A stretch of DNA of 64,000 nucleotides from Actinomycetota bacterium. Lineage in GTDB: Bacteria > Actinomycetota > Thermoleophilia > BMS3ABIN01. Below, in pieces: positions 22,397 to 42,836 of this stretch. A program made the translations under genes and the position numbers. The notes beneath the pieces are model-generated. The model worked only from the letters and a program-made list of their open reading frames with translations, ran no database searches and had not been told where the DNA came from. The stretch spans positions 1 through 64,000 of the forward strand of contig JAMCPM010000006.1 in NCBI GenBank assembly GCA_023382335.1, given 5' to 3'. Every line of letters starts with the position of its first letter. Within the stretch, counting starts at the first letter, position 1.

Positions 22397-23932
22397 TCAG
22401 GCTACAGGTTCGAAGGTTCCCTTCTTAAAAGTCTTGAACAGGACCCATTCGAAGGGCAGCGAGTAAAATCCCGACCTTACCCGCGCCTGCGCCAGTGCGT
22501 GCATCACCTTGTAGGCGTATTTCTTGGAGCCGTGGTTGAGGCTCTTTTGCATGTTGCTGTCCGGGAAAGCGAAAGGATAGTAAAACCCGTTGACCTTCTC
22601 GATCATCTTCCGCTCCCAGGGTTCGACCCACTGGCTCTCCATCAGCGTCGCCGGGTTGTAGTCGGCCCATTCCTCGAGCGACTTGGGCTCGGCCATGCCG
22701 TACTTGATCGACAGGTCGTAAAGCGGCGTGCCCGGATATGGCGTGAAGACAAAGATCTTGGTGCGGATATTGGGCGAGGTCTCCTTCAGTTTCCTGATGA
22801 AATCAAGCAGGTCCTGCGTCGTCTCCTGCGCCGGCGTGCCGGCTGCGTGGGGAAACCCGGTGATGAAAGTGAAGGTGCCGCCGATGCCGTAATCGCGGCA
22901 GGCCTGGGCGCTCTTGAGATGGTCCTCGGCCGTGGCGCCCTTGCAGATGAGATCGAGCACCGGCGCCGATGCCGACTCGGCGCCGACGATGACGCGCTTG
23001 CAGCCGCTCTTGCGGATGAGCTTGAGCGTCTCCGGCTTGTAACGGTGAAAAGTATCTGGACGGGCCGAGGCCACCCAGCGGATGTTGAGGTTGCGTTCCA
23101 GAAAGCCCTCGCAGATGGTCTGCACCCGCTTCTGGTTGGCGAAAAAGTTGGCGTCGCTGAAGTTGACCTGGTCGAGATTGTAGGTCTTCACCAGCTCCTC
23201 GACCTCGTTGACGACGCGCTCGGCGTCGAGGCCGGTCCAGTGGCGCTGATAAAGCTGCGCGTCGGCGCAATAGCCGCACTTGCCCGGGCATCCCTGGCTG
23301 GAATGGAACTCGGTGGTGCGGATCGGCTCGCGGTTGGTCTTCTGGTTGAGCTCGATAGCGCGGTTGACGTCGATCAGATGATAAGGCGCCGGCAGTACGT
23401 CATTGATGTTGGTCAGGGGCCGCGGCTCGTTGACCACAGTGCCTTCAGGCGTCCAGTAGGCGCAGCCGAGAACGTCCGCGGGCGCCTTGCCGGCGGCCAG
23501 GCTCTCGACGATCTCCTGGAAGGTGACGTCGCCCTGCCCCACGCAGACGATGTCGCAGGCCGTCGATTCACAGCACTGCTCCGGGAAGAGCGAGGGATGG
23601 TAGCCTCCCCAGACGATGGGGACCTCGGGATTCATGGCGCGGATCTTGCGTGCCATGGCGATGCCCCGCTTGATCTGGTAACCGGTGATCGAGCTGATGC
23701 CGACGCAGACGGCGCCGTCGAGATGCTTTAGGACTTCCTGCTCGTAATTGGGGGTCACCCGCTCGTCAACGAGGTGAAGCTCATACTTCCCCTCGAGCGG
23801 AGCCGCGATCACAGCGAGCGCCAGGCCCAGCTCGATGCGGTAATGACCGTATGCCGGCGTGGGAAAGAAGAGCACGACCTTATCCTTGCCGCGCCGGTTA
23901 TAGTTGGTTTTTCTGCTGGATGATGATGTCAT
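22397..23932 (-). CDS. B12-binding radical SAM protein, WGGYHPS group member 1
   Basis: 511 aa. The N-terminal Rossmann-type B12-binding domain (about 18-190) has WGGYHPSLFPEQ (108-119); the usual DxHxxG is absent (SSITGYQI instead), so cobalamin would bind without a lower His ligand. The radical-SAM core has CPGKCGYC (Cys 215, 219, 222) and DANFFANQKRVQTICEGFLE. The last 130 residues share with its paralogues a WAD...FYYPFAFP...LPFEW tail. Members of the superfamily methylate or rearrange unactivated carbons; the substrate here is unknown. It has its own TATAAT promoter and AGGA site. Confidence 0.87.
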   Translation of the reverse strand: MTSSSSRKTNYNRRGKDKVVLFFPTPAYGHYRIELGLALAVIAAPLEGKYELHLVDERVTPNYEQEVLKHLDGAVCVGISSITGYQIKRGIAMARKIRAMNPEVPIVWGGYHPSLFPEQCCESTACDIVCVGQGDVTFQEIVESLAAGKAPADVLGCAYWTPEGTVVNEPRPLTNINDVLPAPYHLIDVNRAIELNQKTNREPIRTTEFHSSQGCPGKCGYCADAQLYQRHWTGLDAERVVNEVEELVKTYNLDQVNFSDANFFANQKRVQTICEGFLERNLNIRWVASARPDTFHRYKPETLKLIRKSGCKRVIVGAESASAPVLDLICKGATAEDHLKSAQACRDYGIGGTFTFITGFPHAAGTPAQETTQDLLDFIRKLKETSPNIRTKIFVFTPYPGTPLYDLSIKYGMAEPKSLEEWADYNPATLMESQWVEPWERKMIEKVNGFYYPFAFPDSNMQKSLNHGSKKYAYKVMHALAQARVRSGFYSLPFEWVLFKTFKKGTFEPVA

Positions 23933-23947
23933 TTAGTTCCTGTTCAT

Positions 23948-23953
23948 ATTATA
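23948..23953 (-). promoter_or_regulatory. -10 box for the gene starting at 23932
   Basis: A perfect TATAAT on the reverse strand, 15 bases before the ATG. A start 6-7 bases past it leaves a leader of about nine bases holding AGGAA. No good -35 hexamer. It suggests a new transcription unit inside the gene run. Confidence 0.5.
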
Positions 23954-24025
23954 GACGTTGCCATCGGGCTATCGCCAGCCGGCTGCAAATACGAAAGCCC
24001 GCGGCTAAAAAGGTCTGGCTCCGGA

Positions 24026-25486
24026 TCAGGTCAGCTTTAGCGCCCGCGCCAGCTTCCATTCCCAGGGAAGCCCGTAGTAGCCGAACCTCACCCTGACCTT
24101 GCAGGCCAGCGTAAACAGGCTGTAAAGGGGCTTGAACTTGCTGCGCGCCACCTTCTCGCGGGCCAGCTGGTTGGGAAAGGCCCAGGGCAGGTAGAAGTCG
24201 GCGATCTGCTTCACCTTGATCTTCTGATTGCGCGTAATCCATGGCGTCTGCACGCTGCGGGCGTCAAAACCGGCCCAGTCCTCGAGCGTATCCGGCAGCT
24301 CGAAGCCCTTCTCGGTTCCCAGCCGCGTCAGGGCCGTGCCCGGATAAGGGGTGAAAAACAGCGTCGTCGTGCGCGTGTCGGCATAGATCTCCTTCAGCTG
24401 CTTCATGAAGTCGAGGGTAATGCGCATCTGCTCCCAGGTCTCCGTCGGGAACCCCAGGATGAAGACGAATGACGGCTGGATCTTGTGATCGCGGCAGCGG
24501 CGGGTCGCCTCAAGCACGTCCTTGGCCTCACTGCCCTTGTTGATAAGCTCGAGGATGGAATCGTCCCCGGACTCGGCGCCCATCATGAACTTGGTGCAGC
24601 CGGAGTCGCGGATCAGCTGCAGGTCCTCGTCGCTGAAGGCCATCACCTGCATCGGCCTGATGGTGGCGAACCACTCGAACTTCCGCGGCGATTCCAGGAA
24701 GCCCTTGCAGATCTCGCGCACGCGGCGCTTGGAAGCAAAAAAGTTGTTGTCATCGAAGTAGACCCGGTCGAGATCGTACTGCTCGACCAGTCCGGTCACC
24801 TCGGCGACCACCCGCTCGGCCGACAGCCCCTTCCACTTGCGCCCGTAAGCCTCGGGATTGGAACAGAAGCCGCAGGCATGAGGACAGCCGAAGCTCGATA
24901 CATAATTGATGGCGCGGCGGGTGTCGTCGTGGTGCACCCGGTTGAACTCGATGTATTTCTCGACGTCGATGAGATCGTACGGCATCGGCGGGAATTCGTC
25001 GAGATCGGCGACCTTGCGCTCGGAGTTCTGCACGATGCCGCCGTTGCGGCGAAAGACCAGGCCGTCGATGTCATCGAGCGGCTGGCCGTTTTGCAGGTGG
25101 CTGGCTATCTCCAGGCAGGTAACCTCGCCCTGACCGCGGGCCACGTAGTCGATCCGGGGGTCACGCGCCGTCTGATCGGCAAGCAGCGAGGGATGATATC
25201 CACCCCAGACCACCGGCTTTTCGGGGTATTTCGACTTTACCACCGCCGAGACCTTGAGGCCGTCGGCGATCTGATATCCGGTCATGGAACTGACGCCGAG
25301 AACATCAGCGTCGGCCATCTTCTCGAGCACCATGCGCTCGTAGTCGGGCTCGACGCGGGCGTCGACGACTTCGACTTCGATGCCTTCGCGGCGCAGCGGC
25401 GCCGCACAGGACAGGACGCTCAGGGGCGAGCTGACCTTGTGCCGGTTATTGACATTGGTTAAAGGAAAGAAAAAGACGAACTTCAT
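24026..25486 (-). CDS. B12-binding radical SAM protein, WGGYHPS group member 2
   Basis: 486 aa. VVWGGYHPSLLADQ (92-105) in the cobalamin domain, SSMTGYQI where DxHxxG is expected, radical-SAM cysteines 201, 205, 208 (CPHACGFC), DDNNFFASKRRVREICKGFLE and a GYYGLPWEWKL tail. The true start is ATG 25486, which shares ATGA with the upstream methyltransferase stop; the open frame upstream of it overlaps that gene and does not look like this family. It is probably coupled to the methyltransferase. Confidence 0.87.
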   Translation of the reverse strand: MKFVFFFPLTNVNNRHKVSSPLSVLSCAAPLRREGIEVEVVDARVEPDYERMVLEKMADADVLGVSSMTGYQIADGLKVSAVVKSKYPEKPVVWGGYHPSLLADQTARDPRIDYVARGQGEVTCLEIASHLQNGQPLDDIDGLVFRRNGGIVQNSERKVADLDEFPPMPYDLIDVEKYIEFNRVHHDDTRRAINYVSSFGCPHACGFCSNPEAYGRKWKGLSAERVVAEVTGLVEQYDLDRVYFDDNNFFASKRRVREICKGFLESPRKFEWFATIRPMQVMAFSDEDLQLIRDSGCTKFMMGAESGDDSILELINKGSEAKDVLEATRRCRDHKIQPSFVFILGFPTETWEQMRITLDFMKQLKEIYADTRTTTLFFTPYPGTALTRLGTEKGFELPDTLEDWAGFDARSVQTPWITRNQKIKVKQIADFYLPWAFPNQLAREKVARSKFKPLYSLFTLACKVRVRFGYYGLPWEWKLARALKLT

Positions 25487-26427
25487 GGACGTTGCTGCCC
25501 GCCGCCGGATTTTCTGCTGTAAGATTCGATCATGATGCCCTGGCCGAGTTTCGGTAATATTTTGGCCGCCGGGGCCACCACCGCCCGGCGCACGACCCGG
25601 TCGATCGCCGATGAGGGAAACACCTTGCCGCGCTTGTTCTCGATGCTGCGCTCGGTCACGTAAGCCGCCCCGTAGTGTAGCAGATCGGCCTGGGCGAAAC
25701 CATTGTTTTGCAGGAGTCTTTTTAACGTCTCGGGTGAAAAGTGCCATACATGCCGCGGCGCCTCGATGTTGAACCAGTACGGCCCGAAATAATGCGCTTC
25801 CCAGCTGCCGATGTTGTGTGTCTGCACCATCAGCAGGCCGCCGTCATTGAGATGTTCGGCGCAGCGCTGGAGGCAGGCATTGGGATCGTCGACGTCCTCG
25901 ATGACGCCCATCAGCACGATGCAGTCATACTTGCCGCCCCAGTCCACCTCGTGTTCGGCGCCGCCCTTGACGTCGAGGCCCAGCTCGTCGCGGGCATAGG
26001 CGGCAACCTTCTCGTGAAGTTCGATGCCGCTGACCTCCCAGCCGCGCCGCTGCATTCCCAGAAGGAAATAACCGTCGCCGCAGCCGACGTCCAGGAGCCT
26101 GCCGGGGCGTTGCCTGCGGTTGAGCTCGGCGATCTGCGGTGCGAAACGGGAGATCCGTTGCTCGGCCTGGGCGCGCTTGCGGCCCAGGGCCCAATCGAAC
26201 AGCGGATAGAGGTCGGAGAAGGCGTTGCGGCGCTCGTCGAAGGCCGGGCGCGGTGACATCCTCAAAGTACCGCAATCCGGGCAACGGACGATGCGGTACT
26301 GCTCGGGAGACCCCAGCAGCGTGTCCCTGACATTCCACATCGGGCGCTGCAGGGCGCTGCCGCACACGGCGCAGTCTACCTGGTGCTCCGCTTCCTCGAA
26401 GGTGTTGCCCGCTGGCGTATCGGACAT
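25483..26427 (-). CDS. Class I SAM methyltransferase with N-terminal zinc ribbon
   Basis: 314 aa. CAVCGSAL and CPDCGTLRMSPRP form the zinc ribbon, then LLDVGCGDGYFL is the SAM loop and VLMGVIEDVDDP the post-motif region. RHVWHFSPETL links it to the same group as the gene at 20334. The start is ATG 26427, three bases after the preceding stop; a further ATG 13 codons upstream would overlap it. It sits between two B12 radical-SAM genes and is likely part of the same modification step or series. Confidence 0.85.
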   Translation of the reverse strand: MSDTPAGNTFEEAEHQVDCAVCGSALQRPMWNVRDTLLGSPEQYRIVRCPDCGTLRMSPRPAFDERRNAFSDLYPLFDWALGRKRAQAEQRISRFAPQIAELNRRQRPGRLLDVGCGDGYFLLGMQRRGWEVSGIELHEKVAAYARDELGLDVKGGAEHEVDWGGKYDCIVLMGVIEDVDDPNACLQRCAEHLNDGGLLMVQTHNIGSWEAHYFGPYWFNIEAPRHVWHFSPETLKRLLQNNGFAQADLLHYGAAYVTERSIENKRGKVFPSSAIDRVVRRAVVAPAAKILPKLGQGIMIESYSRKSGGGQQRP

Positions 26428-26429
26428 CG

Positions 26430-27890
26430 CTACTTTCTCCCGGCGCGCCGCTTTTTCAGCTGCCACTCCAGAGGCGCGCGGAAGTCGCGATTGCCGACGC
26501 GCCAGGAAGCGAGCTTGTGCATGGCGCGGTAGGCGTATCCCTTGGGCCCGCCGGCGGCCATGCGGCGCTTGAGCTCAGGCCCCGGCGACGCGAAAGGCAT
26601 GTAGAAATCTATGATCATGTCAACTTTTTCCTTGTAGACCGGATCGACCCAGGGTGTGTGCAGCTCGGTGAGGTCGAAATCCGCCCATTCCTCGAGCGAC
26701 TGCGGCGGACGGAATCCCAGCCGCAGCGCTTCCTGGTACATGGGCGCTCCGGGATAGGGAGCGAAGAAAAATCCGTGGACCTCGAAATCCTCATTGATCG
26801 CCTTGATGCCTTCAATCATTCGCAGGGTCGCCTCGATGTCCTTCTCGGGCTCCCCGGGGAAGCCGAACATGGTCGTGAAGCGGGCGATGATGCCCAGGTC
26901 GTTGCAGATCCGGGAGACGTGCAGGGTGTCGTCGACGGTAGTCTGCTTGCCGATGCTCTCCAGCGCCTTCTGGGAACCGGACTCGGCGCCCAGCAGCAGG
27001 CGCCGGCAACCGGCGTCATAGACCAGCTGCCTCAGCTCCGCCGGGAAATCGATGAACTGCTTGGTGCGCACGTCGGCCGCCCATTTCAGGTCGATGCCGC
27101 GCTCGATGATGCCCTCGCATATGGCTCTTACCCGCTTCTTGCTGACGAAGAAGTTCGTATCGGCGAAATCGATGGCGTTGACGCCGTAATCCCTTGCCAG
27201 GATCTCGAGGTCGTCGACGACGCGCTCGGGCGAGAAGCCCACCCAGCCGCGGCCGTACATGGCGGTCTCGGCGCAGAAACCGCAACCGAAGGGACAGCCC
27301 TGCGATGAGAAATATTTCATCGTGAGGCTGCCCAGGTCGGGCACCATGTACTTCTCCATGTCGAGGATATCGTAGGGAGTCGAGGGGAACTGGTCGATGT
27401 CGATAAGCTTCGGATGCCCGGTGATCACGGGTTTGCCGTCGCGTTTATAGCACAGACCGGGTATTCCCTCAAGGGACTCGCCGGCCAGCAGACGCTGCGC
27501 CAGCTGCGTCGCCGAAAGCTGCCCCTGGCCGCGGATGACATAGTCGATGTAACTCTCGGAAAGAGTCTCCTCGGGAAGCATGCTGGCGTGATAGCCGCCC
27601 CAGACGACCGGGATGTCAGGATAAGCGTCCTTGACCGCCCGCGAAATGTTGACCGCGTCGTGGATCTGCCAGCCGGTCATGACCGACAGGCCGACGTACA
27701 GCGAGCCGCGAGCCGCTGAGAGGATACGCGGCAGGTGCGGATGAATGACACGGCCGTCGACCAGCTCCACCTGCACTCCGGCGGCTTTCAGAGGTGCCGC
27801 CAGCGCCTGGAGCGGCAAAGGCGCCCAGACGTTACTCTCGCGCCTCAGGCGCGGCATTATCAGTGTTACCTTGTTCGCTTGTTCACCCAA
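26430..27890 (-). CDS. B12-binding radical SAM protein, WGGYHPS group member 3
   Basis: 486 aa. VVWGGYHASMLPEE (95-108) and SVMTGWQI in the cobalamin domain; CPFGCGFC (Cys 199, 203, 206); DTNFFVSKKRVRAICEGIIE; C-terminal APLEWQLKKRR tail, the most divergent of the group there. The start is TTG 27890 with GGGG seven bases upstream. It reads toward, and nearly abuts, the methyltransferase gene at 25483-26427. Confidence 0.86.
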   Translation of the reverse strand: MGEQANKVTLIMPRLRRESNVWAPLPLQALAAPLKAAGVQVELVDGRVIHPHLPRILSAARGSLYVGLSVMTGWQIHDAVNISRAVKDAYPDIPVVWGGYHASMLPEETLSESYIDYVIRGQGQLSATQLAQRLLAGESLEGIPGLCYKRDGKPVITGHPKLIDIDQFPSTPYDILDMEKYMVPDLGSLTMKYFSSQGCPFGCGFCAETAMYGRGWVGFSPERVVDDLEILARDYGVNAIDFADTNFFVSKKRVRAICEGIIERGIDLKWAADVRTKQFIDFPAELRQLVYDAGCRRLLLGAESGSQKALESIGKQTTVDDTLHVSRICNDLGIIARFTTMFGFPGEPEKDIEATLRMIEGIKAINEDFEVHGFFFAPYPGAPMYQEALRLGFRPPQSLEEWADFDLTELHTPWVDPVYKEKVDMIIDFYMPFASPGPELKRRMAAGGPKGYAYRAMHKLASWRVGNRDFRAPLEWQLKKRRAGRK

Positions 27891-27953: not shown

Positions 27954-29975
27954 TTATCGGCCGCCGGTCAGAAAACTCAGGCGTTCCGGGACGTCGCCCG
28001 GCTCCATCATGCTGGCGACGTCCTCGCCGCTCACCTTTCCCGCGACGATGGCGATGCTGCGGCAATAACTGTTATTGCCGAATTCATCGAAATGCCAGCG
28101 CTTGGAGATGCGGATGGTCGGCTGTCCGTCTATCGGCTCGACATTGGGAAAAGTGATGTGTTTCACCTCTCCTCCATCAATTCTATACCACAGGTGTACG
28201 CCGGCGGGCAAATCGCCGTTGGCGCTGTATAGCTGGGCCGCCACGTAACGGATCACCGAGCCCGGATGCACAGGCTCCAGCGGCAGCGAGGAAATCTCTC
28301 CCTGGCCGGTCTGACTCCCCGTCTTTATCACTATTACCTTGGAGAATTCGTCACCTACCGCCGGCAGATAGCGGGTGGAGAACGCCAGCTGCGTCTCCCG
28401 GCTGGGGTCACCGATCTCGAAATAGGAAGCCGGCCGGTAAGGAGCATCGTTGGAGAAGTCGAACTCAGCCTCGCCGGTGACCCAGAAATCTACGGTGGGA
28501 TCGAAGCCCAGCCTGGTGTTGCTGATACTGACGTCGAGGCTGGGTCTCAGCGAACGCGAGGCGTTCGACCAGCCGGTGTCTTCCCCCTCTTCCAGCGGTG
28601 GCCTCCCGGGAACGCCTTCGCGCCCTTCGTCGATGAAATATCCGTCAGAGGCGTTTACCTCGAAGAAGCGGTCTTCCCCGTAGGTATTGACCCCGCGGTA
28701 GACCCTGTACTTGACGGCGCCGACGTCCTTCTCCCATTGGAGCAGGGAAATGCGTTGGTTGAAGTTGGTCCTCACCCGGGCTTCGGCCGACGGCGGGCTC
28801 TCCTTGCCCTGGGCGTCCACCGACGTCACCCGGTAATAATAGGTGTCATTAGCTTCGAGCATCGAACCGGCCAGCCTCAATTTCAGCGGCCAAGAATCGG
28901 GAGTAATGCCAACACCGGCCACGATCAGGAGCAGGAAGGTGACCGGCGGCAGCGCCATCAGGGGCAGCAGCATCAGACCCAGTTTCCGGCGCCAGGCGCC
29001 GATGCCGAAGCTGAGGGCGGCGCCGGCGCCGAAGACAGCCGTGGAGGCCCAGAGGATCGAAGCCCTCTTGGTTCCGGAATCGTAGAGCTCGCCGTGGAAG
29101 ACCTGGGGCGTGGCCGCCCGCACCCACATGCAGTTCTCGGAGTCGCCATCGAAATACGGTGTGAAGAAATCCTTGGCCTCGGACTGGAAGGCGTCGAGAT
29201 TGGCCACGCCCTTGAAGCCGTCACTGACGACCTCGACCGTGTAGGACGCGGTCCCCGGGGGCAGCCGGTAGATAAAACCGCCATCGCGCACCCAGCCGGA
29301 CGCGGCCGGGTCGACGGGGCCGTCCTGGAATCCCAGCTGTGCTCCGCCGGCGTCAAAGGCCACCAGGCGCACCGTGAGAGCGCCGCCGGCGTAAGAAGTG
29401 ACCTGATGGTCGAAGGAGAGCGTCCGCGGAGCCTGGAAGGTGCCCAGCGCGATCGGGTCGTAAGCCTGGTCGGCGGCCACCGGCATGCGCTCGGCCAGCC
29501 TGGCCACTACCCCCGAGGTCCCCTGCGGGGCCACGCGCAGTGACTTTTTACCGTGGCTGGCGGTGGCGGCGTCGAGGGCCGTTCCCGCTCCCAGCACCCA
29601 GCCCTTGCCCTCGAAGCTGGGGTCGACGATCTCGTTGACGCCGCCCTTGTAGACAGCCATGCCCTGCTTCCCGTCAAAATGGACCGCGCCCTCTGTCTCC
29701 AGGGCATCGAAGTAGATACGTTTGCCGCGGCTGAACAGTTCCTGGTTCTGAAAGTCCGCCAGCAGCTTGATGTCGCGGGAGGTGAGGGGCGCATCCCTGC
29801 CGTTGTTGCCGGTGTAGATGCTGGGCGAGCCGGCCGAATCACCGCAGCCGGCGGCGGCCAGCATGGCAGCCAGGATCAAGGCAAGCGCCGCCGCTGTGAA
29901 GATGATGGTCGATGAGCTTTTGAAACGTGAAATGATGCCCGCCCCTGTTCCACGCAGTTTGCCCGCCCCATTCAA
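27954..29975 (-). CDS. Lipoprotein with central membrane hairpin and fibronectin-like domain, function unknown
   Basis: 673 aa from TTG 29975 (GAGGG nine bases upstream). The signal peptide ends in LAAAGC with the lipidated Cys at 44. Residues about 115-270 look like a carbohydrate-binding jelly roll (VDPSFEGKGW opening). Two membrane helices follow at about 305-326 and 334-356, then a fibronectin-III-like segment (TYYYRVTSVDAQGKESPPS) near 367-470, and a C-terminal beta-rich region. A lipid anchor plus an internal membrane hairpin is uncommon. It lies among B12 radical-SAM genes; it could present or receive the glycan at the cell surface. Confidence 0.65.
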   Translation of the reverse strand: MNGAGKLRGTGAGIISRFKSSSTIIFTAAALALILAAMLAAAGCGDSAGSPSIYTGNNGRDAPLTSRDIKLLADFQNQELFSRGKRIYFDALETEGAVHFDGKQGMAVYKGGVNEIVDPSFEGKGWVLGAGTALDAATASHGKKSLRVAPQGTSGVVARLAERMPVAADQAYDPIALGTFQAPRTLSFDHQVTSYAGGALTVRLVAFDAGGAQLGFQDGPVDPAASGWVRDGGFIYRLPPGTASYTVEVVSDGFKGVANLDAFQSEAKDFFTPYFDGDSENCMWVRAATPQVFHGELYDSGTKRASILWASTAVFGAGAALSFGIGAWRRKLGLMLLPLMALPPVTFLLLIVAGVGITPDSWPLKLRLAGSMLEANDTYYYRVTSVDAQGKESPPSAEARVRTNFNQRISLLQWEKDVGAVKYRVYRGVNTYGEDRFFEVNASDGYFIDEGREGVPGRPPLEEGEDTGWSNASRSLRPSLDVSISNTRLGFDPTVDFWVTGEAEFDFSNDAPYRPASYFEIGDPSRETQLAFSTRYLPAVGDEFSKVIVIKTGSQTGQGEISSLPLEPVHPGSVIRYVAAQLYSANGDLPAGVHLWYRIDGGEVKHITFPNVEPIDGQPTIRISKRWHFDEFGNNSYCRSIAIVAGKVSGEDVASMMEPGDVPERLSFLTGGR

Positions 29976-30004
29976 AGGGGATGCTGCCCTCGCGCGACGC
30001 CTGG

Positions 30005-31549
30005 CTAGTAGCCGCGCAAGGCGTCGATCTGCGAACCGAATTTCCGGAACCGGTTCATCCTCGCCAGCCTCTGTATCAGGCGCCATTCAAAAGGCAGGCC
30101 GTACCAGCCGAACCGGCACCGCGCCGCCGCCATCCAGTGAAGCGGATACAGAAGCGGCTTCCACTTGAGCTGCTCGAGCCTCTTGCGCAAGAGGTGATTC
30201 GGATACGCAAAAGGAAAATAAAAACTGTTGCACCGCTCGACCAGGTCCTTTTCCGCCGGGGTGATCCACGTCGTCTGCACGCTGGTCGATTCCCAGTCGG
30301 CCCAGTCCTCGGTCTTCTCGGGCATTTTCAGATTAAGCTTGACCGCCATATCGTAGATGGGCGTGCCCGGATAAGGCGTCACGTAGAAAGTAACCGTGAT
30401 CACCTCGGGGTGCGATTTGCGCATCCTCTGGATCAGCCTCAGCGTCTGGCGGATCTCATCCTCGGATTCATCGAGTTCCTTGGGGAAGCCAACCATGAAA
30501 GCGTAGCAACCCTGGATGCCTGCCTGCTCCAGTATCTGGTTGGAGCGGATGGCCTTCTCCGGTGACGTGCGCTTGTCGATCATGTCGAGGATCGTTTGGG
30601 AGCCCGATTCGACGCCGATGCCGATCTGCGAGCAGCCGGACTCGCTCATCAGGCGCGACAGCTCCGGCGAGATCCTCACCACCTGGTCGGCTCTGGCGGC
30701 GGCGCTCCAGGTTATGCGGATGCCTCGCTCGAGGAACATGCGGCACATTGCCTCGACCCGTTTGCGGTCGACGAAGAAATTGGGATCGGAGAAAGTGACG
30801 TGGATGAGATGGTGTTTCCTGTACAAAGCTTCGACTTCATCAACGACATGCTCGGCGCTGCGGCCGCTCCACTTGCCGAAGACCTTGGGCTCGACGCAGA
30901 AGGTGCACTTGAAGGGACAGCCCTGGCTGGAGATGAACTGCAGGGCGCGCCTGCCGCCGTTCAGGCGGAAGAAGCGGTCGATGTCCAGCAGCTCGTAGGG
31001 GGCCGGCGGAAAGCTGTCGACGTTGTCCATGGGCCGGTCGGGGTTGCTGACGACCTCTCCGGTAGCGTCGCGGAAGGTGACGCCGGCGACGCCGCTGAAA
31101 TCGGCGCCCGCCTCCAGCCGCGAGATTATCTCCTGGAAGCTGCGCTCGCCCTGGCCCCGGACGACAGCGTCGACGTAAGGCTCGGCGGCGCACTGTTCGG
31201 GCAGCAGCGACGGATGGTAGCCGCCCCAGACGATCGGCATGTCCGGCCAGCGGTCCTTGATCATGCGGGAAAATTTGATGGCTCGTTGCAGCTGGAAACC
31301 GGTGATGGTGCTGACGCCGACGCAGATGGCCCCATCAGCCGCCTTGAGGATATCGCCCTCGGGATCGTCGCGCAGGCGTTCGTCGATGAGGATGACCTCG
31401 TAGCCGTCGGCATGCAGGGGCGCCGCCACCGCCAGGATGGAAAGCGGTATCTCAAGCGAGTAGCCGCTGCCCTCCAGGGGTTCGGGGAAGAGAAGGACGA
31501 TCTTCGGTTTTTGCCGCGGGCTCACCCGTCCGGGCGATGAATTGTTCAA
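30005..31549 (-). CDS. B12-binding radical SAM protein, WGGYHPS group member 4
   Basis: 514 aa. IVWGGYHPSLLPEQ (106-119), STITGFQL in place of DxHxxG, CPFKCTFC (Cys 211, 215, 218), SDPNFFVDRKRVEAMC and a GWYGLPFEWRL tail. The start is taken as TTG 31549, three bases after the upstream stop but with no ribosome site; GTG 31525 after GGACGG is an alternative. It is closest in layout to member 1 at 22397. Confidence 0.86.
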   Translation of the reverse strand: MNNSSPGRVSPRQKPKIVLLFPEPLEGSGYSLEIPLSILAVAAPLHADGYEVILIDERLRDDPEGDILKAADGAICVGVSTITGFQLQRAIKFSRMIKDRWPDMPIVWGGYHPSLLPEQCAAEPYVDAVVRGQGERSFQEIISRLEAGADFSGVAGVTFRDATGEVVSNPDRPMDNVDSFPPAPYELLDIDRFFRLNGGRRALQFISSQGCPFKCTFCVEPKVFGKWSGRSAEHVVDEVEALYRKHHLIHVTFSDPNFFVDRKRVEAMCRMFLERGIRITWSAAARADQVVRISPELSRLMSESGCSQIGIGVESGSQTILDMIDKRTSPEKAIRSNQILEQAGIQGCYAFMVGFPKELDESEDEIRQTLRLIQRMRKSHPEVITVTFYVTPYPGTPIYDMAVKLNLKMPEKTEDWADWESTSVQTTWITPAEKDLVERCNSFYFPFAYPNHLLRKRLEQLKWKPLLYPLHWMAAARCRFGWYGLPFEWRLIQRLARMNRFRKFGSQIDALRGY

Positions 31550-31552
31550 AGG

Positions 31553-33049
31553 TTAGCTTTGTTGACTTGGATGGGCTCCGGCGGGGACTGCTTCCTCGCC
31601 GGGTTTTCTAAGACCAGTATACCGGGGCCCATCCGGGTTAGCCAGCAGCCTTGCCGCCCTTGAAGCTATCCTGCCGCTCTTGCGCGCGGCCTTCCAGGCC
31701 TTGAACGCCAACGGATTCTTTTCCATGAAACGCATCAGCGGCCACCAGCGGCGGTCCCTTTTGGCGAAGGTCAGCATCAGCTCCCGCAGCCGGATCAGAT
31801 AATCGCTGGGGAGGTCCGGCTGGTTGAGCACCGAGCCTTTCCAGATCTCCGTCAACCGCTCGTGGTCGCGGTTGAGTAGCCCCTCCTTCAGGCAGTAATC
31901 ATAAAACGGCGTTCCCTGGAAGGGATAAAAGATCGTTATCTGGAAGATGTCGGGCTGGATCAGGTTGATGAACTCGGTGGTGTCCTGGATCTTGGCCCTG
32001 TCTTCCTTGGGCAGTCCGATCATGACGAAGGCAAAAGTCTTGATGTTGTAGCGCCGGGCGATCGTCACCGCGTCGATGACTTCCTGCTGCCGGGTCTTGC
32101 GATTGAGCATCTCGCGCCGGTACTGCTCGTTGCCCGACTCCAGCCCAAAGGATACGGTGTTGGCGCCGGCCTTCGCCAGCAGTGACATCATCTCGTCGTT
32201 CACGGTCTCCGGGCGGGTGCTGAAGGAGAACGGCAGCCCGATGCCCTCATAGAGCTTGCAGAACTCGCGGATGCGCTTGCGGTTGAGGATGAAGGTCTCG
32301 TCGGTGAAGCGGATATAGTCGACGCCCCTGTCCCTGACGATCTTGTTGACTTCGGCGATGATGCGGGACGCCGATTTTTCCCGGTGGTAGTTGCCCTTGC
32401 CACGATAGATCTCCTGCATCACCGGGGTCATGCAGTAAGGGCATGAATACGGGCAGCCGCGTGAGGTCTCGAGGTCGCCGAAGGTGACTGCCCCCGGGGA
32501 GAAGACCTGGTGGTAGTGCTCGCGGAAGTGCCGCTCGTCCCAGATGTCCCAGTTGGGAAGAGCAAGGCTGTCGAGATCGGCGATGAGGTCGCGCACGTCG
32601 TTGCGATGGATCCGGCCGTCGCGCTTGACCCAGAGATTAGGCATGGTAGTCAGGTCGGCCCCGGATTCGAGCCGCTCGATCAGGTCGATGATCGCCTCTT
32701 CGCCCTCACCGCGAACCAGCATGTCCACGCTCTCGTGGGCGATGACTTCTTCGGGGGCGATGGTGGCGTGGGGCCCGCCGACGACGACGGGAACGCTGAC
32801 CGGCTGGGCCTGCAGTATCTGCTTGGCGGTATCCCACTCGGTGCTGCGGCAGGAGACGCCGACGAGGTCCGGCTGATAATCCGCGAGCGCCTTGCGGTAG
32901 GCGGCCGGGACATCACTGTCGTCAAGGAAGGTGATGTCGAAAATGCGGGAGTCATGTCCGTCCCGGGCCAGTGTCCCCGCCAGGGAACTGAGTCCAACCT
33001 GAGGCGAACGCGAACGCGCCACGTTCGGGTATATGAACAGGACCTTCAC
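31553..33049 (-). CDS. B12-binding radical SAM protein, classical type
   Basis: 498 aa. A cobalamin-domain protein with VVVGGPHATIAPEE (88-101) rather than WGGYHPS, CPYSCPYC (Cys 199, 203, 206), RFTDETFILNRKRI and FGLESGNEQYRR. It resembles the common BchE/HpnJ-like architecture and lacks the LPFEW tail of its neighbours. The start is GTG 33049 with GAGGGGGAG five bases upstream, an excellent site. A gap of about 100 bases precedes it and may hold its promoter (TTATAT near 33080), but no strong -35 is visible. Confidence 0.87.
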   Translation of the reverse strand: MKVLFIYPNVARSRSPQVGLSSLAGTLARDGHDSRIFDITFLDDSDVPAAYRKALADYQPDLVGVSCRSTEWDTAKQILQAQPVSVPVVVGGPHATIAPEEVIAHESVDMLVRGEGEEAIIDLIERLESGADLTTMPNLWVKRDGRIHRNDVRDLIADLDSLALPNWDIWDERHFREHYHQVFSPGAVTFGDLETSRGCPYSCPYCMTPVMQEIYRGKGNYHREKSASRIIAEVNKIVRDRGVDYIRFTDETFILNRKRIREFCKLYEGIGLPFSFSTRPETVNDEMMSLLAKAGANTVSFGLESGNEQYRREMLNRKTRQQEVIDAVTIARRYNIKTFAFVMIGLPKEDRAKIQDTTEFINLIQPDIFQITIFYPFQGTPFYDYCLKEGLLNRDHERLTEIWKGSVLNQPDLPSDYLIRLRELMLTFAKRDRRWWPLMRFMEKNPLAFKAWKAARKSGRIASRAARLLANPDGPRYTGLRKPGEEAVPAGAHPSQQS

Positions 33050-37007: not shown

Positions 37008-37010
37008 AGG

Positions 37011-38423
37011 CTAACTCCTCAACAACGCTTTCAGCTCCGCGGGCTTGACGCCGCCGATGAGCATGATCACGACCGGATAAACCATCAGGGCCGCCACTGT
37101 CGCCAGCCAGGGATTATATCGCCACAGCGGCAACGCCACCGCCGCCATGGCCAGGCCGCCGATGATGGGCCTGACGAACAGTACAGCGGTGTGCTTCTTC
37201 AAAAAATGCTTGCGGACGGCCATATAGAAGAGCCACTGCCTCACGGCGGTGCCGCCGACGGTGGCGAAAGCGGCGCCGTTGATGCCGAACGGCGGAATCA
37301 GTATGAAGTTCAAAACCGCGGTCGCCACCGCCACCAGCACCAGGGCCCTGGCCGCCAGCCTTTCCTTGTCGACGACCTGCAGCACGTTGAAATCCACCGA
37401 GGTCGTCAGCATCATCGGCAACGACCAGATGAGGATGATCAGCACAGTCGAGCTTCCCGCGTAAGCGGAAGAGAAGTGCGACAGCGCCGGCCCGGCCATC
37501 AGGCTGATGGCCATGGCTCCGGGGATGCCCAGCATGGCCATGAGCCGGTACCACTGCCAGCTGTTCATGCGGGCGGCGTCGGGATCGCGCACGTAGATCT
37601 CGGTGAACCCGGGAAGCGTCGTGCGCGCCAGCGTCACCGGCACCCAGATGAAAGGCACGAAAAGAGTGTAGGCGACGTTGAAGATACCGACAGCTGAGTA
37701 TTCCTCGAGCAGCCCCAGGGCGATGATATTGACCCGCAGGAAGATCATGCTGGCCGCCGCGCCGATGGCGAACGGCAGCGAGGCGATCAGCATCTCCTTC
37801 AATTGCTGCCGGGGAAACTTGAATGAGAACGATGTGATCTTTTTCAAGACAAAGCCCATGCGCAGGACCGCCTCGACCACGACGCCGGCCACGTAGCACC
37901 ACATCACCACGATCACCGAGGCGCCGGCAAGCAGCGCCGCGATCCCCAGGGCGACGAAGACGATCCGGTCCAGCAGGTTGAAGAGCGAGGAATAAAAGAA
38001 ATTCTGGCTGGAGATAAAAGCCGACTCGGCCGTGTTGATGAATCCGGAGAGGAAGATGGGGATCATGCCCAGCAGCAGCAGATCCTGTTTCTCGGATGCC
38101 GGCACCAGCAGCAGTACCCCGATGACGCCGATGGCGACGAAGGCCACCGAGGTCAGCACTTCCAGCGACAGGATGACGCCGCCGAGCTCAGCCTTCCTGC
38201 CGGGATAGCGGATGAGTTCGCGGGCGCCGTACCGGGTGAGGCCCATGTCCCCGATCGACGAGAGCAGCTCGACGATGGCGAGCACGAATGAGAAGGCGCC
38301 GAAGGCGTCAGGGCCCAGCCGCGAGGCTGCGTAGATGACGAAAACCGTGTATAGCAGGCGGGAGAACAGCCTGGAGCCGAAGACGTAGCTCGTATTCCTG
38401 ACTACTGTTTTAAATCCTGGCAA
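37011..38423 (-). CDS. Wzx-type polysaccharide flippase
   Basis: 470 aa with 12-14 predicted membrane helices. VVRNTSYVFGSRLFSRLLY and GPDAFGAFSFVLAI are typical N-terminal features. The start is TTG 38423, the only in-frame start that keeps the family N-terminus; its ribosome site is weak. Its promoter must lie upstream in 38424-38586, which is shared with the divergent small gene. It is followed by the two AsnB genes. Confidence 0.88.
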   Translation of the reverse strand: MPGFKTVVRNTSYVFGSRLFSRLLYTVFVIYAASRLGPDAFGAFSFVLAIVELLSSIGDMGLTRYGARELIRYPGRKAELGGVILSLEVLTSVAFVAIGVIGVLLLVPASEKQDLLLLGMIPIFLSGFINTAESAFISSQNFFYSSLFNLLDRIVFVALGIAALLAGASVIVVMWCYVAGVVVEAVLRMGFVLKKITSFSFKFPRQQLKEMLIASLPFAIGAAASMIFLRVNIIALGLLEEYSAVGIFNVAYTLFVPFIWVPVTLARTTLPGFTEIYVRDPDAARMNSWQWYRLMAMLGIPGAMAISLMAGPALSHFSSAYAGSSTVLIILIWSLPMMLTTSVDFNVLQVVDKERLAARALVLVAVATAVLNFILIPPFGINGAAFATVGGTAVRQWLFYMAVRKHFLKKHTAVLFVRPIIGGLAMAAVALPLWRYNPWLATVAALMVYPVVIMLIGGVKPAELKALLRS

Positions 38424-38540: not shown

Positions 38541-38566
38541 TCGGCAGGCGATCGCTTCTACAAAAT

Positions 38567-38576: not shown

Positions 38577-38586
38577 AGAGGTTGTC

Positions 38587-38784
38587 ATGGAATATGAAGA
38601 TCTTGAACTATCGCTACGCAGTGAGGCGCAATCGATCTCCCGCGGTAACCGGGACTGGACTTCGGCCGAGGTCTCGCACAAGCTCGAGGAGATAGCCGAC
38701 CGGCTGGCGGATATCAAGCACCGGCGCCAGTCGGGCATCGATGCTTCCATGGGAAAAAGGTCGGGTGGAAAGCTGGAGATCTAG
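38587..38784 (+). CDS. Small charged helical protein, unknown
   Basis: 65 aa. Starts MEYEDLELSLRSEAQ; mostly charged and helical (VSHKLEEIADRLADIKHRR), no membrane segment. The start is ATG 38587 with AGAGG five bases upstream. The frame is open back to ATG 38440, but that start would leave only 16 bases to the divergent flippase gene and has no ribosome site. It is the only forward-strand gene in more than 45 kb of reverse-strand genes. I recognise no family. Confidence 0.5.
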   Translation: MEYEDLELSLRSEAQSISRGNRDWTSAEVSHKLEEIADRLADIKHRRQSGIDASMGKRSGGKLEI

Positions 38785-38819
38785 GAAGAGCCGGCGCCGC
38801 GCGCCGCCGGCGGCCCGCC

Positions 38820-38860
38820 AGAAGACGGGCGGCGGCCCGCTAGAAGACGGGCGGCGGCCC
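38820..38860. repeat. 22-base tandem duplication across the stop codon of the propeller gene
   Basis: AGAAGACGGGCGGCGGCCC occurs at 38820-38838 and again at 38842-38860. The second copy contains the end of the coding sequence and its TAG, the first lies just past it. It appears to be a recent slippage duplication in a GC-rich convergent gap. Confidence 0.6.
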
Positions 38861-41137
38861 CGGCAACCAGTAAGTATTGCCGCCGTCATCCTGGCAGCTG
38901 GCGTAGCTTACGGTCCTGAACTGGGTAACCCCGGCCGGTATCAGGTAGGTGAAGATATAGTCGACCGAAGCGCCACTGCTGATATTCCCAACAGGATAGG
39001 GAAGCGCGTCGAGCAGCATCGCCCCGTTGGACGCGGTCCCCAGATCTATCCGGGCGCCCTGGCAACGGCCCGTGCCGGGGTCCATGAGACGATAGCGCAC
39101 TGACAGATCGTGATTAACATAATTCGCATAGCTCGACCAGTAGACACCGATCGTGGAAAGTGACAGGGTCGGCGATGTGACCGTAAAGCTCCAGGTCTGA
39201 TCGGTGACCTTCTTGTTGACGTCGGAGACGACCAGGCGTACGGAGTGCACGCCGTCGGCGAATCTCGCTCCCCATTCCGGCAGGAAGCTGAACCCGCCCG
39301 AATCCGCGCCGCTTGTGAGGGTGATGGCTGGCGACGCCCTCAGCACTCCATCGATATAGACGCTCACCGAGGCGGCGTCGATGCCGGCGCCATTGCGGGT
39401 CCAGGCCGCCGAGACCGGTGCCACCGGGTTATTGACCACCGCGCCCGCCGACGGTGAGAAGCCGGAAGCGATGGGGCCGCCCTGCACCGTAAAGCTCCAG
39501 TCCTGCGTGGCGGTATTGCCGGCGTTATCGCTCACGCTCAGCGACGCCAGGTGGCTGCCCTCAGGGAGCCCGCCAGCCGGACAGGAAAGTGATGAGGCCG
39601 TCACCGTGCAACCTGCCTGCGGGCTGCCATCCAGTTTCAGAGCCACCGAGCCGGCATTGATGCCGGAGACCTGGTCGGAATAATCGGCGCTCAGGGTGAC
39701 CGTGCCGGAGTTGCCCGTTCCCGCGGGCGAGAGCCCCGTTATAGATGGCGCGGTCGTGTCGACGTCAAAATTCGAAGCACCGGCAACCGCCGCGTTCCCT
39801 GAGAGGTCTTTAAGATTGACGCTGACGCTGTGGTGGCCGTCGGCGATGCCTGCGGCCGCGCAGGTCACTCCGGTTACGGTAACGGTGCAGGCAGCCAGAG
39901 GCGAGCCGTCGAGCGAGACAGTCACAGTCGAGCGGTCGACGCCGGTGCCACCGTCGGAATAGGTCGCCGAAATCGTTGTGCCCGTGCCCGCAATGAGGCC
40001 GGACGGGGTTACCACGCCGGCATGGGGAGCCACCGTGTCCTGGGCCGCATAGATGTCCCAGTTGCCGGCCCGCTTGTCCATCCAGGCGATGCGGGCGCCG
40101 CTGATGACCGGCGTCTTCTGTGCCGAGGACGAGCCCGGAGCGCTGATACGCTCTTCGATGCCGGCGACCATGTTCCTGAAATAGGTGGCCTCGCCGCCGT
40201 CACGCGCGTCCTTCCAGACCGCGAAATCACCGCTGGCGCCGGGCCAGCTCTGGCCGGCGGCGTTGTTGGTCACTCTCGTTTCCACGCCGGTATCGATTTC
40301 CTTCATGTAAACATCCCAGTTGCCGTTGCGAAAATCCTGCCAGTAGATGCGGTGGCCGGCGACAACGGGATTGTACTGATCGGAGGTATTGGTGCAGACA
40401 GCCTGCTCCACTCCGGTCGAAAGATTCTTCATGTAGATGTCCGGATTGTGCCACCAGCCGGAGCCATCCTGGGTGGCGTTGCGCATGTCCTCCCAGGCGA
40501 CGATGTTGCCGTCGATGTCGGGATTGCGCTTGTCTTTTGTGGGATAGGGGACCGCCGGCGATGGATCCGCCAGGCTCACGGGGGCGTCAGCCGGCTGGGT
40601 CAGGTCGCGCATGTAGATGTCGCCGTAATCGGTGCTGTTCCTGTAGTCGCCCCAGACCACGATGTTGCCGCTGATGGAAGGGGTGACCATCTGGGCCGCG
40701 GCCACCGAGGTGTCCTGCTCGCCGCCGGTGGTGAGATTGTGGACTACGATCTTGCCGGTGTCCCAGTTGCGCCAGACGGCGTTGCTGCCGCTGATGTCAG
40801 GATCCAGCGCGTTGTAGGTGGCGGTCAGCCGTTGCTCTGGCCCGCCCGCAAGATCGCGCATGTAGATGTCAGCCGCAGTGCAGTTTTGAGCGGTGGGGCA
40901 GCCCGTGCCGGAGTTGGGCGGGACGATCTGCTTGTTGCGATAATCCTGCCAGACCACGATGCCGCCGCTGATGGAAGGATTGACCTGATCGGAGGAATCT
41001 GCGACGACGGCGGTTTCAGACCACTCGGAGGATGCCGCCGCCAGGGAAGACAGGGCATGGAAAATCGCCATCGTGACGAACACGGAAAACGCCAGGAGAA
41101 GGCTCCGCTTATTGAAAGGTCCCAAAAATATACCCAC
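38840..41137 (-). CDS. Secreted beta-propeller and Ig-like repeat protein
   Basis: 765 aa. Signal peptide about 1-37. Residues 40-375 hold six or so TolB-like repeats with the pattern NPSISGGIVVWQDYRN followed by DIYMRDL. From about 380 to 660 there are three Ig-like repeats, the first two with a paired Cys (AACTVTVTG..TCAAAG), then a C-terminal beta domain. Likely exported and surface-attached; it may be an acceptor of, or reader for, the glycan. GTG 41137 is used; TTG 41125 after GGTGGG is an alternative. An attenuator-like hairpin precedes it. Confidence 0.8.
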   Translation of the reverse strand: MGIFLGPFNKRSLLLAFSVFVTMAIFHALSSLAAASSEWSETAVVADSSDQVNPSISGGIVVWQDYRNKQIVPPNSGTGCPTAQNCTAADIYMRDLAGGPEQRLTATYNALDPDISGSNAVWRNWDTGKIVVHNLTTGGEQDTSVAAAQMVTPSISGNIVVWGDYRNSTDYGDIYMRDLTQPADAPVSLADPSPAVPYPTKDKRNPDIDGNIVAWEDMRNATQDGSGWWHNPDIYMKNLSTGVEQAVCTNTSDQYNPVVAGHRIYWQDFRNGNWDVYMKEIDTGVETRVTNNAAGQSWPGASGDFAVWKDARDGGEATYFRNMVAGIEERISAPGSSSAQKTPVISGARIAWMDKRAGNWDIYAAQDTVAPHAGVVTPSGLIAGTGTTISATYSDGGTGVDRSTVTVSLDGSPLAACTVTVTGVTCAAAGIADGHHSVSVNLKDLSGNAAVAGASNFDVDTTAPSITGLSPAGTGNSGTVTLSADYSDQVSGINAGSVALKLDGSPQAGCTVTASSLSCPAGGLPEGSHLASLSVSDNAGNTATQDWSFTVQGGPIASGFSPSAGAVVNNPVAPVSAAWTRNGAGIDAASVSVYIDGVLRASPAITLTSGADSGGFSFLPEWGARFADGVHSVRLVVSDVNKKVTDQTWSFTVTSPTLSLSTIGVYWSSYANYVNHDLSVRYRLMDPGTGRCQGARIDLGTASNGAMLLDALPYPVGNISSGASVDYIFTYLIPAGVTQFRTVSYASCQDDGGNTYWLPGPPPVF

Positions 41138-41146
41138 CCGATCAGG

Positions 41147-41193
41147 GAAAGAAAAACTCCGGGAAGCCTTCGGCTATTAGGCTCGCCCCGGAG
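41147..41193 (-). terminator. Attenuator-like hairpin in the leader of the propeller gene
   Basis: On the reverse strand CTCCGGG and CCCGGAG pair around an inner AGCCT/AGGCT stem, followed directly by TTTTTCTTT. The T tract ends about ten bases before the GTG at 41137. Because the upstream gene already has its own terminator-like hairpin at 41309-41330, this one looks like a regulatory terminator inside the leader. No known riboswitch consensus was recognised. Confidence 0.5.
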
Positions 41194-41308
41194 CGACTTT
41201 CACTAGCAAAACAGCAGTATTACCTGCAATGGATTTAATCTTACACGGGGTGGTAAAAAAAACATGATGCGTTTGCGGTAATTAACTGAAGCAAAGACAT
41301 CAATAATG

Positions 41309-41330
41309 GAAAAGCCGTCCTGAACGGCCT
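41309..41330 (-). terminator. Terminator-like hairpin after the gene at 41355
   Basis: GCCGT/ACGGC stem with a five-base loop and a short TTTT tract on the reverse strand, 25 bases past the stop codon. Weak but well placed. Confidence 0.45.
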
Positions 41331-41354
41331 CTATCTTCTGAAACGATCAAGGCC

Positions 41355-42836
41355 TCAATCTTCTGACGTGCCCTCGCGCATGCCTCGCAACAGCCACCAG
41401 TCTACCGGCAGGCTCCAGAAGTGAAGCCGGCATCGCGTTTTGCTGGCTGCGCTGGCCACGCTCACGTATGCGCGCCGGAGGGAACTGCGTGCGGCCCGCC
41501 GCCGCACCCACTCTGACGGGTAACCGTAGACCATGTAGAACTCGCGCTGCTTCATGCGGTTCTGGAAGCTCTTGTCCATCCAGGGGAGCCGCCCGGTGAC
41601 GGTCGTGAACTGGGCCCATTCCTCCAGCGATTCCGGACCCTTGAGGCCGAGCTCGACCGCCTTGTCATAGAGGGCGTTCCCCGGAGTCGGAGCATAGAAA
41701 TGCAGCTGGGAATTATATTCCCCCACGATCTTCGAGACCTGTTCCATGACGTCCCAGGTCTCCTCGATCTCGGATGAGGTCTCTCCCGGGAAGCCGACGA
41801 TGAAGCTGTAGGAGATCTTGATGCCGTGCTTGCTGGCGACCCGCGCCGCCTCGAGGATGTCCTCCGGCTCGATGTCCTTCTGCATGCTGGTCAGCTGCGA
41901 CCGCGAGCCGCTCTCGGCCCCGACCAGGAAGGCCCAGAGGCCGCTCTGCTTGAGGAGGTCGAAAGTGTCCTCCGCGAACTTGCCCAGCTGCGGCGCCCTG
42001 GCGTTTGCCGCCCAGCCGAATTTCATGCCGCGCTCGATCATCCCCTGGGAGATCTCGCGGGCTCTTTTTTCCTTGACGAAATAGGTGGAATCGAAATACA
42101 TGATGCCGTTGACGCCGAGGAAGCTCTCCAGCCATTCGAGGTCGGAGAGAACCCGCTCGGGCGTGTAGGCCTTCCAGGCGCGCCCGTATACCAGCGGTTC
42201 GGCGCAGAACTGACAGCGCGCCGGGCATCCCTGGCTGGAGACATAATTGATCACCCGGCTGCCCACGTGCATGTTGTTGAGATACTGCTTGGGATTATCG
42301 AGCTTCTCATACGGCAGGCGCGGAAAAGAATTGATGTCGGCCACCGGACGCCCGGGGTTGTTGAAGGTCTCGCCGCCGCGGCTGAAGGTGATGCCGTCGG
42401 CTCCGGTAAAATCTTCCCCCTGATCGAGGAGGTTGGCGATCTCCAGCAGCGTGACTTCCCCCTGCCCGCGAACGACCGCGTCGACGTACTGGTTCCGGCT
42501 GGTCTGCTCGGGAAGGATCGAGGGATGGTAACCACCCCAGATGATCGGCAGCTTCAGCCCGGCGCCGCGAACGGCTCGCGCCGCCTCCAGGGCAAAGTGG
42601 ATCTGCGGGCCGGTCATGCAGCTGATGCCGAGCATGAGGGAATCGCGGCATTCGTCGACCAGACGCTGCTGCCAGGCCGGGTCGACGTTGGCGTCGATCA
42701 GCTTGACGTCAAAGCCCTCGGCGAACAGCGGCGCTGACGCCGCCAGGATCGGCAGCGGCGCCCAGGTCCACGGATGGTAGACCTTCTCGAAGTGGTTCCG
42801 CGGATATAGGAGGACTATTTTCTTCTTTGCCGTCAT
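41355..42836 (-). CDS. B12-binding radical SAM protein, WGGYHPS group member 5
   Basis: 493 aa. IIWGGYHPSILPEQ (98-111), SCMTGPQI in place of DxHxxG, CPARCQFC (Cys 204, 208, 211), DSTYFVKEKRAREIS, and a C-terminal FWSLPVDWWLLRG. The aromatic tail and central block are altered relative to members 1-4, so this is the outlying paralogue. ATG start with AAAAGG close upstream, nine bases after the GT-C gene stop, hence probably co-transcribed with the two membrane glycosyltransferases. Confidence 0.86.
   Translation of the reverse strand: MTAKKKIVLLYPRNHFEKVYHPWTWAPLPILAASAPLFAEGFDVKLIDANVDPAWQQRLVDECRDSLMLGISCMTGPQIHFALEAARAVRGAGLKLPIIWGGYHPSILPEQTSRNQYVDAVVRGQGEVTLLEIANLLDQGEDFTGADGITFSRGGETFNNPGRPVADINSFPRLPYEKLDNPKQYLNNMHVGSRVINYVSSQGCPARCQFCAEPLVYGRAWKAYTPERVLSDLEWLESFLGVNGIMYFDSTYFVKEKRAREISQGMIERGMKFGWAANARAPQLGKFAEDTFDLLKQSGLWAFLVGAESGSRSQLTSMQKDIEPEDILEAARVASKHGIKISYSFIVGFPGETSSEIEETWDVMEQVSKIVGEYNSQLHFYAPTPGNALYDKAVELGLKGPESLEEWAQFTTVTGRLPWMDKSFQNRMKQREFYMVYGYPSEWVRRRAARSSLRRAYVSVASAASKTRCRLHFWSLPVDWWLLRGMREGTSED

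Follow-up and report, generated by a model that had tools for sequence, protein, structure and literature searches.

The locus described here raises a question of number: why should one surface-glycan locus hold five related cobalamin (B12)-binding radical S-adenosylmethionine (SAM) proteins, and on what might they act? The window, by which we mean the whole 64,000-nucleotide stretch that was analysed, spans positions 1 to 64,000 of contig JAMCPM010000006.1 from the Actinomycetota bacterium assembly GCA_023382335.1 (Thermoleophilia; BMS3ABIN01). An initial annotation had picked out five genes, at 22397, 24026, 26430, 30005 and 41355, as a local family with no known characterised member. All five are present and encode B12 radical-SAM proteins, here called T1 to T5. 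They are five anciently separated lineages of one subfamily and, within a Wzx/Wzy-type surface-glycan locus, fixed parts of a biosynthetic cassette that is itself conserved.

22397..23932, minus strand: T1, B12-binding and radical-SAM protein, 511 aa, WGGYHPS, tail LPFEW (PF02310 and PF04055)
24026..25486, minus strand: T2, B12-binding and radical-SAM protein, WGGYHPS, tail LPWEW (Pfam)
26430..27890, minus strand: T3, B12-binding and radical-SAM protein, 486 aa, WGGYHAS, tail APLEW (Pfam)
30005..31549, minus strand: T4, B12-binding and radical-SAM protein, 514 aa, WGGYHPS, tail LPFEW (Pfam)
41355..42836, minus strand: T5, B12-binding and radical-SAM protein, 493 aa, WGGYHPS, tail LPVDW (Pfam)

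Domains were called at Pfam curated cut-offs and at NCBIfam equivalog cut-offs, and all five proteins exceed the Pfam cut-offs for both PF02310 (B12-binding) and PF04055 (Radical_SAM). The T2 open reading frame (ORF) as listed runs too far, to 25747; alignment with the family and overlap with the stop of the upstream methyltransferase gene, MTa, point to a conserved ATG (MKFVFF) at 25486 as the likely start. The other four copies are 31–41% identical to T1. Common to all are P-[IV]-[VI]-WGGYH-[PA]-S, CxxxCxxC, D-x-[NT]-[FY]-F and a C-terminal R-x6-[YFW]-x2-P-x-[ED]-[W], so that the WGGYH-(P/A)-S loop, D-x-(N/T)-(F/Y)-F block and LPFEW-like C-terminus of the initial annotation are all borne out. 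The three cysteines C215, C219 and C222 are invariant in the family alignment. The D-x-N-F-F block is a variant of a D-x-x-F motif, and it is this motif that other B12 radical-SAM proteins of the window carry too; D-x-x-F, CxxxCxxC and GG are found throughout the superfamily, as is the loss of DxHxxG.

The tail is more discriminating, and neither it nor WGGYH is shared by mere chance. Hidden Markov models (HMMs) of the tail were built in two variants, one trained on non-actinomycete relatives only and one on the full member set. Among the window's ORFs, the non-actinomycete model matches exactly T1 to T5 (E 2e-7 to 1e-3), out of ten radical-SAM genes in all (two of them SPASM-type, at 21332 and 47300); the B12 radical-SAM ORFs at 31553-33049, 49181-50584 and 53212-54633 have neither WGGYH nor the tail. 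At E<1e-3 the full model recovers 114 of 123 members and none of the 49 other B12 radical-SAM ORFs of the examined loci, member status having been assigned by whole-protein score, tail included. WGG[YWF][HF] occurs in 104/119 members and 0/47 non-members, a frequency among members that is biased upward by the use of WGGYH as one of two seeds of the database scan. In an alignment of 58 members, R484 (54/58), P493 (51/58) and E/D495 (53/58) are conserved within the tail and, outside it, K331 and W422 are invariant and W435 nearly so (57/58). The tail thus marks a subfamily, not the whole superfamily. Literature searches found nothing on this subfamily or on such clusters, and no member with a name or a characterised function came to light, in agreement with the initial annotation.

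Scanning genome contigs with a profile of the five sequences yielded 69 loci in many bacterial and archaeal phyla, including Actinomycetota, Acidobacteriota, Bacteroidota, Pseudomonadota, Myxococcota, Planctomycetota, Spirochaetota, Elusimicrobiota, Omnitrophota, Shapirobacteria, Falkowbacteria, Diapherotrites, Woesearchaeota, Bathyarchaeota, Methanosarcinales and others. Several of the members missed by the tail model belong to Methanosarcinales/Methanoperedens and have different C-termini; five such loci (L061, L062, L067, L072 and L078) group with the subfamily but have, in place of the R...P-x-E tail, a short C-terminus of another kind. Tail-less relatives from other actinomycete classes (L121 and L122) were judged non-members. 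Viral or plasmid carriage was rejected: no relatives were found on viral contigs, and the plasmid matches listed break off around residue 403-463 and do not reach the tail.

How old are the five copies? The initial annotation saw a local tandem expansion, which the trees do not support: each of T1 to T5 sits in its own supported clade of orthologues, with T1 and T4 as sister lineages (support 97/94), and the family extends across phyla. Median orthologue identities in close loci are 80% for T1 (n=13 orthologues), 74% for T2, 78% for T3, 68% for T4 and 79% for T5, and orthologues are conserved across seven genera of the one bacterial family. Because each copy has orthologues far closer (~68-80%) than its paralogues (31-41%), recent tandem duplication was rejected. 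Within the window's bacterial family every genome (19 of 19, its own included) has these enzymes, versus 1 of 21 others in the class. A search of 297 genomes of the phylum gave matches at E<=1e-75 in 17; five of these lie in the window's bacterial family and most of the others have matches that do not reach over the tail.

The genes that accompany the five copies are as follows.

14366-15814: second Wzx-type flippase (Polysacc_synt; Pfam)
15811..19267, minus strand: two Wzy_C (O-antigen ligase/polymerase type) membrane proteins (Pfam), divergent among relatives
19280..20437, minus strand: aldo-keto reductase (AKR) fused to a 4Fe-4S ferredoxin-like domain (Pfam)
20334..21383, minus strand: MTb, class I SAM methyltransferase with an N-terminal CxxC (Pfam)
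21332..22282, minus strand: radical SAM/SPASM protein (Pfam), directly after T1, position invariant in relatives
25483..26427, minus strand: MTa, class I SAM methyltransferase (Methyltransf_23; Pfam E 1e-28), between T3 and T2
27954..30086, minus strand: 710-aa conserved protein with hydrophobic segments, between T4 and T3, start uncertain
31553..33049, minus strand: R6, B12 radical-SAM protein of another subfamily (Pfam), adjoining T4, without WGGYH or tail
33156-35039 and 35112-37007, minus strand: two asparagine-synthase-like amidotransferases (Pfam), syntenic, median identities 72% and 71%
37011..38423, minus strand: Wzx-type flippase (Polysacc_synt; Pfam)
61086..62501, minus strand: bacterial sugar transferase, an initiating polyprenyl-phosphate glycosyl-1-phosphate transferase (PF02397, E 6e-72)

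The order T3-MTa-T2-(extra methyltransferase in some)-T1-SPASM-MTb-AKR-Wzy1 is kept wherever contigs span it, with the exception of one genome, JAJYOG, and the genes are packed as in an operon. The claim of methyltransferases between the copies stood in part, for the ORF listed as 25483-26466, whose position between copies 3 and 2 is kept in all loci spanning the region. Companion genes in close loci are about as conserved as the five themselves (median identities: MTa 72%, SPASM 78%, MTb 71%, AKR 73%), as is RmlB at 76%, whereas the variable genes are far less so (Wzy1 54%, Wzy2 44%, second Wzx 41%, PMT-type protein 44%). This pattern suggests that the chemistry is conserved while the envelope varies, which would set the locus apart from variable O-antigen loci. 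R6 falls outside the tail clade in trees and is syntenic in relatives. The 710-aa protein, which has no match in Pfam or NCBIfam, is syntenic in relatives, only 38-48% identical (median 43%) and fast evolving; a second large conserved protein with hydrophobic segments, at 38840-41137 and with a bacterial Ig-like domain, is likewise interleaved with the radical-SAM genes. Elsewhere in the window, an adjacent pair of small ORFs at 50712-51249 resembles, by eye, a RelE/RelB-type toxin-antitoxin module.

The locus as a whole holds an initiating sugar transferase, two Wzx flippases, three Wzy_C proteins, glycosyltransferases, RmlB, a nucleotidyl transferase, the two amidotransferases and a DegT aminotransferase. 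The glycan setting given by the initial annotation proves usual for the subfamily: in about 18 distant loci the commonest neighbours are glycosyltransferases of families 2 and 1, epimerases, RmlD-like proteins and GDP-mannose dehydratase, with flippases also present. Acidobacteriota and Runella have multi-gene arrays of their own, which combine two to three members of the subfamily with further B12 radical-SAM proteins, methyltransferases, a SPASM protein and glycosyltransferase or Wzy_C proteins; these arrays, which include that of Granulicella mallensis (L065), are L057, L060, L064, L065, L066 and L076. A genome contig (G000:C5:14000-24600, locus L116) carries a second group of proteins with B12-binding domains, these from other subfamilies: three ORFs of ~470 aa in a row and an HpnJ-like protein (247 bits), accompanied by a family 2 glycosyltransferase, a PMT-type protein and a further radical-SAM gene. 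The genome, of 2.45 Mb, has 17 PF02310 matches.

To which known enzymes, then, are the five proteins akin? None of them reaches the cut-off of any NCBIfam model, and membership of a named family was accordingly rejected. HpnJ (TIGR03471) and BchE (TIGR02026) are the best named relatives over most of the protein, with matches that stop before the P-x-E tail and scores of 132-152 bits (HpnJ, cut-off 577.6) and 118-162 bits (BchE, cut-off 481.35); TIGR04295 (B12_rSAM_oligo) gives 41-52 bits against a cut-off of 400. The commonest NCBIfam matches over the 58 members are likewise BchE (58 members), HpnJ (57) and ApyD (57), and for the first of these members all the matches printed fall far below cut-off.

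An AlphaFold2 (AF2) model of T1, built from a 58-row alignment, has a predicted local distance difference test score (pLDDT) of 93 and a predicted template modelling score (pTM) of 0.91, and its tail, rich in cationic and aromatic residues and closed by a helix, forms two helices (471-487 and 494-503). The best folds returned by Foldseek are TsrM, OxsB, MgmA, TokK, CysS and AprD4, at query-normalised template modelling scores (TM-scores) of 0.60-0.65 and, for TsrM, OxsB, TokK and CysS, a probability of 1.00. With these last four enzymes the five proteins share the domain order, namely a cobalamin Rossmann domain without His ligand, a radical SAM barrel and C-terminal helices (PMC13331322), and it is to the OxsB and TsrM cobalamin domains that the N-terminal half of T1 to T5 aligns. 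Since fold matches and domain order agree, the proteins are, on the modelled structure, class-1 cobalamin radical-SAM enzymes. They differ from the four in being 15-21% identical to them, in having Met or Ile predicted under the cobalt in place of Asn, Arg or Trp, and in a tail before which the sequence match stops; the known substrates of the four are nucleotide, tryptophan, carrier-linked or carbapenem compounds. Of the solved structures, AprD4 (6FD2, NF033070) matches best in sequence; it has a similar fold and acts on a sugar substrate. Its match is above threshold only in the radical-SAM half, the N-terminal half remaining below, and its score is far under the family cut-off.

The predicted cobalamin site itself can be placed by alignment. 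The initial annotation took an STG motif to replace the cobalamin-His motif; S-x-[IM]-T-G in fact aligns with the OxsB Asn186 position and not with DxHxxG, a site expected ~42 residues upstream of S-x-[IM] and absent in all five, as is usual in this class. The motif runs S80-x-[IM]82-T83-G84, with 26 residues after position 82 before GG109-110, and corresponds to the S-x-L position, which in OxsB is S184-V-N186. Because the family profile G-[IV]-S-S-M-T-G aligns with OxsB G-L-S-V-N186-F-G, position 82 is predicted to lie under the cobalt, where OxsB has Asn186, TsrM Arg69 and TokK, a radical methylase, the hydrophobic Trp76 (PMC13331322). Over the 58 members this position is Met in 34, Ile, Leu and Val in seven each, Phe in two and Cys in one (57/58 M/I/L/V/F). 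By column counts, S-x-[IMLV]-T-G, [WL]GG[YW]H-x-[ST] and the residues K331, W422 and W435 are subfamily columns, and T1 to T5 fit them all. The five probably bind cobalamin and a 4Fe-4S cluster, to judge from these motifs; the host genome encodes CobT and three cobalamin riboswitches.

Given a subfamily and a conserved cassette that are real and well supported, we infer the chemistry. The reading that we prefer, on which we consider the case evenly poised, is that T1 to T5 are distinct, position-specific class-1 cobalamin radical-SAM enzymes acting on a lipid-linked sugar unit (or lipid) of a Wzx/Wzy-type polymer, through methyl transfer or C–C formation or rearrangement. Radical C-methylation of the lipid-linked sugar unit is the likeliest reaction, the enzymes being C-methylases or else ring-contracting relatives of these; C-methyltransferase activity is suggested by the enzyme class and by a predicted hydrophobic residue under the cobalt, as in TokK. 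The set may work stepwise on a single polymer or lipid, as the initial annotation supposed. Each enzyme, in which an N-terminal Rossmann cobalamin domain is followed by a radical-SAM barrel and by a helical C-terminal domain closed by the R-x6-[YFW]-x2-P-x-[ED] helix, would bind cobalamin base-off with the Met or Ile beneath the cobalt; the 5'-deoxyadenosyl radical would activate one particular C–H bond of the lipid-linked sugar unit or its lipid; and a methyl group would be transferred, or a C–C bond formed or rearranged, at the activated carbon. The interleaved methyltransferases, SPASM radical-SAM protein and Fe-S aldo-keto reductase would carry out companion O- or N-methylation and redox steps, all before flipping and polymerisation. 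MoeK5 (moenomycin) and GenK/GenD1 (gentamicin) have as substrates sugars in a glycolipid or aminoglycoside. They are a precedent for sugar C-methylation, likened by function and not by sequence, and are single enzymes of antibiotic clusters, in contrast to the five-member set of a cell-surface locus seen here; both are named among the cobalamin radical-SAM C-methylases (PMC8992657).

Several observations weigh against this reading. Structural relatives include non-methylases, OxsB (ring contraction) and AprD4 (diol dehydration), and methylation therefore cannot be read from the sequence; TM-scores of only ~0.6 mean that the substrate pocket need not be shared with known enzymes; and the approximately unbiased (AU) test neither demonstrates nor rejects one common ancestry for all the actinomycete copies (p 0.29). 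Moreover, the main locus of JAJYOG (G006; locus L036) lacks T1 and T2, while another of its contigs (L024:4125-7100) carries a diverged T2-T1 pair, 43% and 45% identical, which groups with T2 and T1 in trees and lies beside TetR and MMPL genes, with no glycan genes. Of the refuting conditions named in the initial annotation, a location mainly outside glycan or lipid loci does not apply: members lie mostly in glycan loci, with this pair as the exception. Kept together in the same order outside the main locus, T2 and T1 seem to work as a pair, whose placement could imply a lipid or a small-molecule or exported substrate.

That all five might act on lipids (the polyprenyl carrier, a glycolipid anchor or an exported lipid), with the glycan genes mere neighbours, is a serious alternative though an unlikely one in our view: the JAJYOG pair speaks for it, as do the lipid enzymes among the nearest named B12 radical-SAM families (HpnJ, HpnR and TIGR04072) and the cationic, aromatic tail with its terminal helix, but the genes are embedded in a Wzx/Wzy locus across the same bacterial family, and in distant phyla glycosyltransferases and sugar-nucleotide enzymes make up most of the neighbours. 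Equally serious, and no better placed, is an activity like that of HpnJ or OxsB, contracting or rearranging a sugar ring or forming a C–C bond on the lipid-linked sugar with no methylation. HpnJ has a part in making a sugar-derived cyclitol on a lipid, since bacteriohopanetetrol cyclitol ether requires hpnJ together with hpnI and hpnK (PMC5462960); HpnJ heads the NCBIfam matches of T1, T2 and T5 and is in the top three for T3 and T4, and ring-contracting OxsB is among the best folds. Yet scores of about a quarter of the HpnJ cut-off, equalled approximately by BchE and ApyD, indicate superfamily-level resemblance, and five ring contractions in one pathway would be less economical than five methylations. 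Improbable is a cobalamin-free radical diol dehydratase like AprD4, removing sugar hydroxyls with the aldo-keto reductase as its reductase partner: AprD4, solved with its sugar substrate, leads the sequence matches among solved structures and the cassette does include an Fe-S aldo-keto reductase, but the N-terminal half matches the OxsB and TsrM cobalamin domains, which argues against such an enzyme, and PF02310 exceeds its cut-off in all five, with S-x-[IM]...GG kept. To the view that these are general B12 radical-SAM features on a recent local duplication of no special meaning we give hardly any credence; D-x-x-F, CxxxCxxC, GG and DxHxxG loss are indeed general, but neither the tail nor WGG[YW]H occurs in the other B12 radical-SAM proteins examined, the paralogues are too far apart and the orthologues span seven genera of one family. 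As the initial annotation's own check, the tail is not superfamily-wide, being found in 0/49 of those other proteins.

An extension of the preferred reading, which we regard as doubtful though somewhat better placed than these rivals, is a decorating line in which at least five position-specific enzymes of the one subfamily, interleaved in a set order with ordinary methyltransferases, put several C-methyl or C–C modifications on one lipid-linked repeat unit. This would give a new chemical class of surface polymer throughout an uncultured Actinomycetota family, with independent arrays in Acidobacteriota and Bacteroidota doing similar work.

For most cobalamin radical-SAM proteins substrates are still to be found. 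The present subfamily offers a simple sequence signature and multi-gene arrays whose order hints at the order of a pathway, and Granulicella mallensis, as a named relative with a genome, makes it accessible to testing. If the preferred reading is true, it would open up an entire class of surface glycans or glycolipids whose units are C-methylated or C–C-modified, and provide a paralogous enzyme set with which to ask how such an enzyme chooses its carbon.

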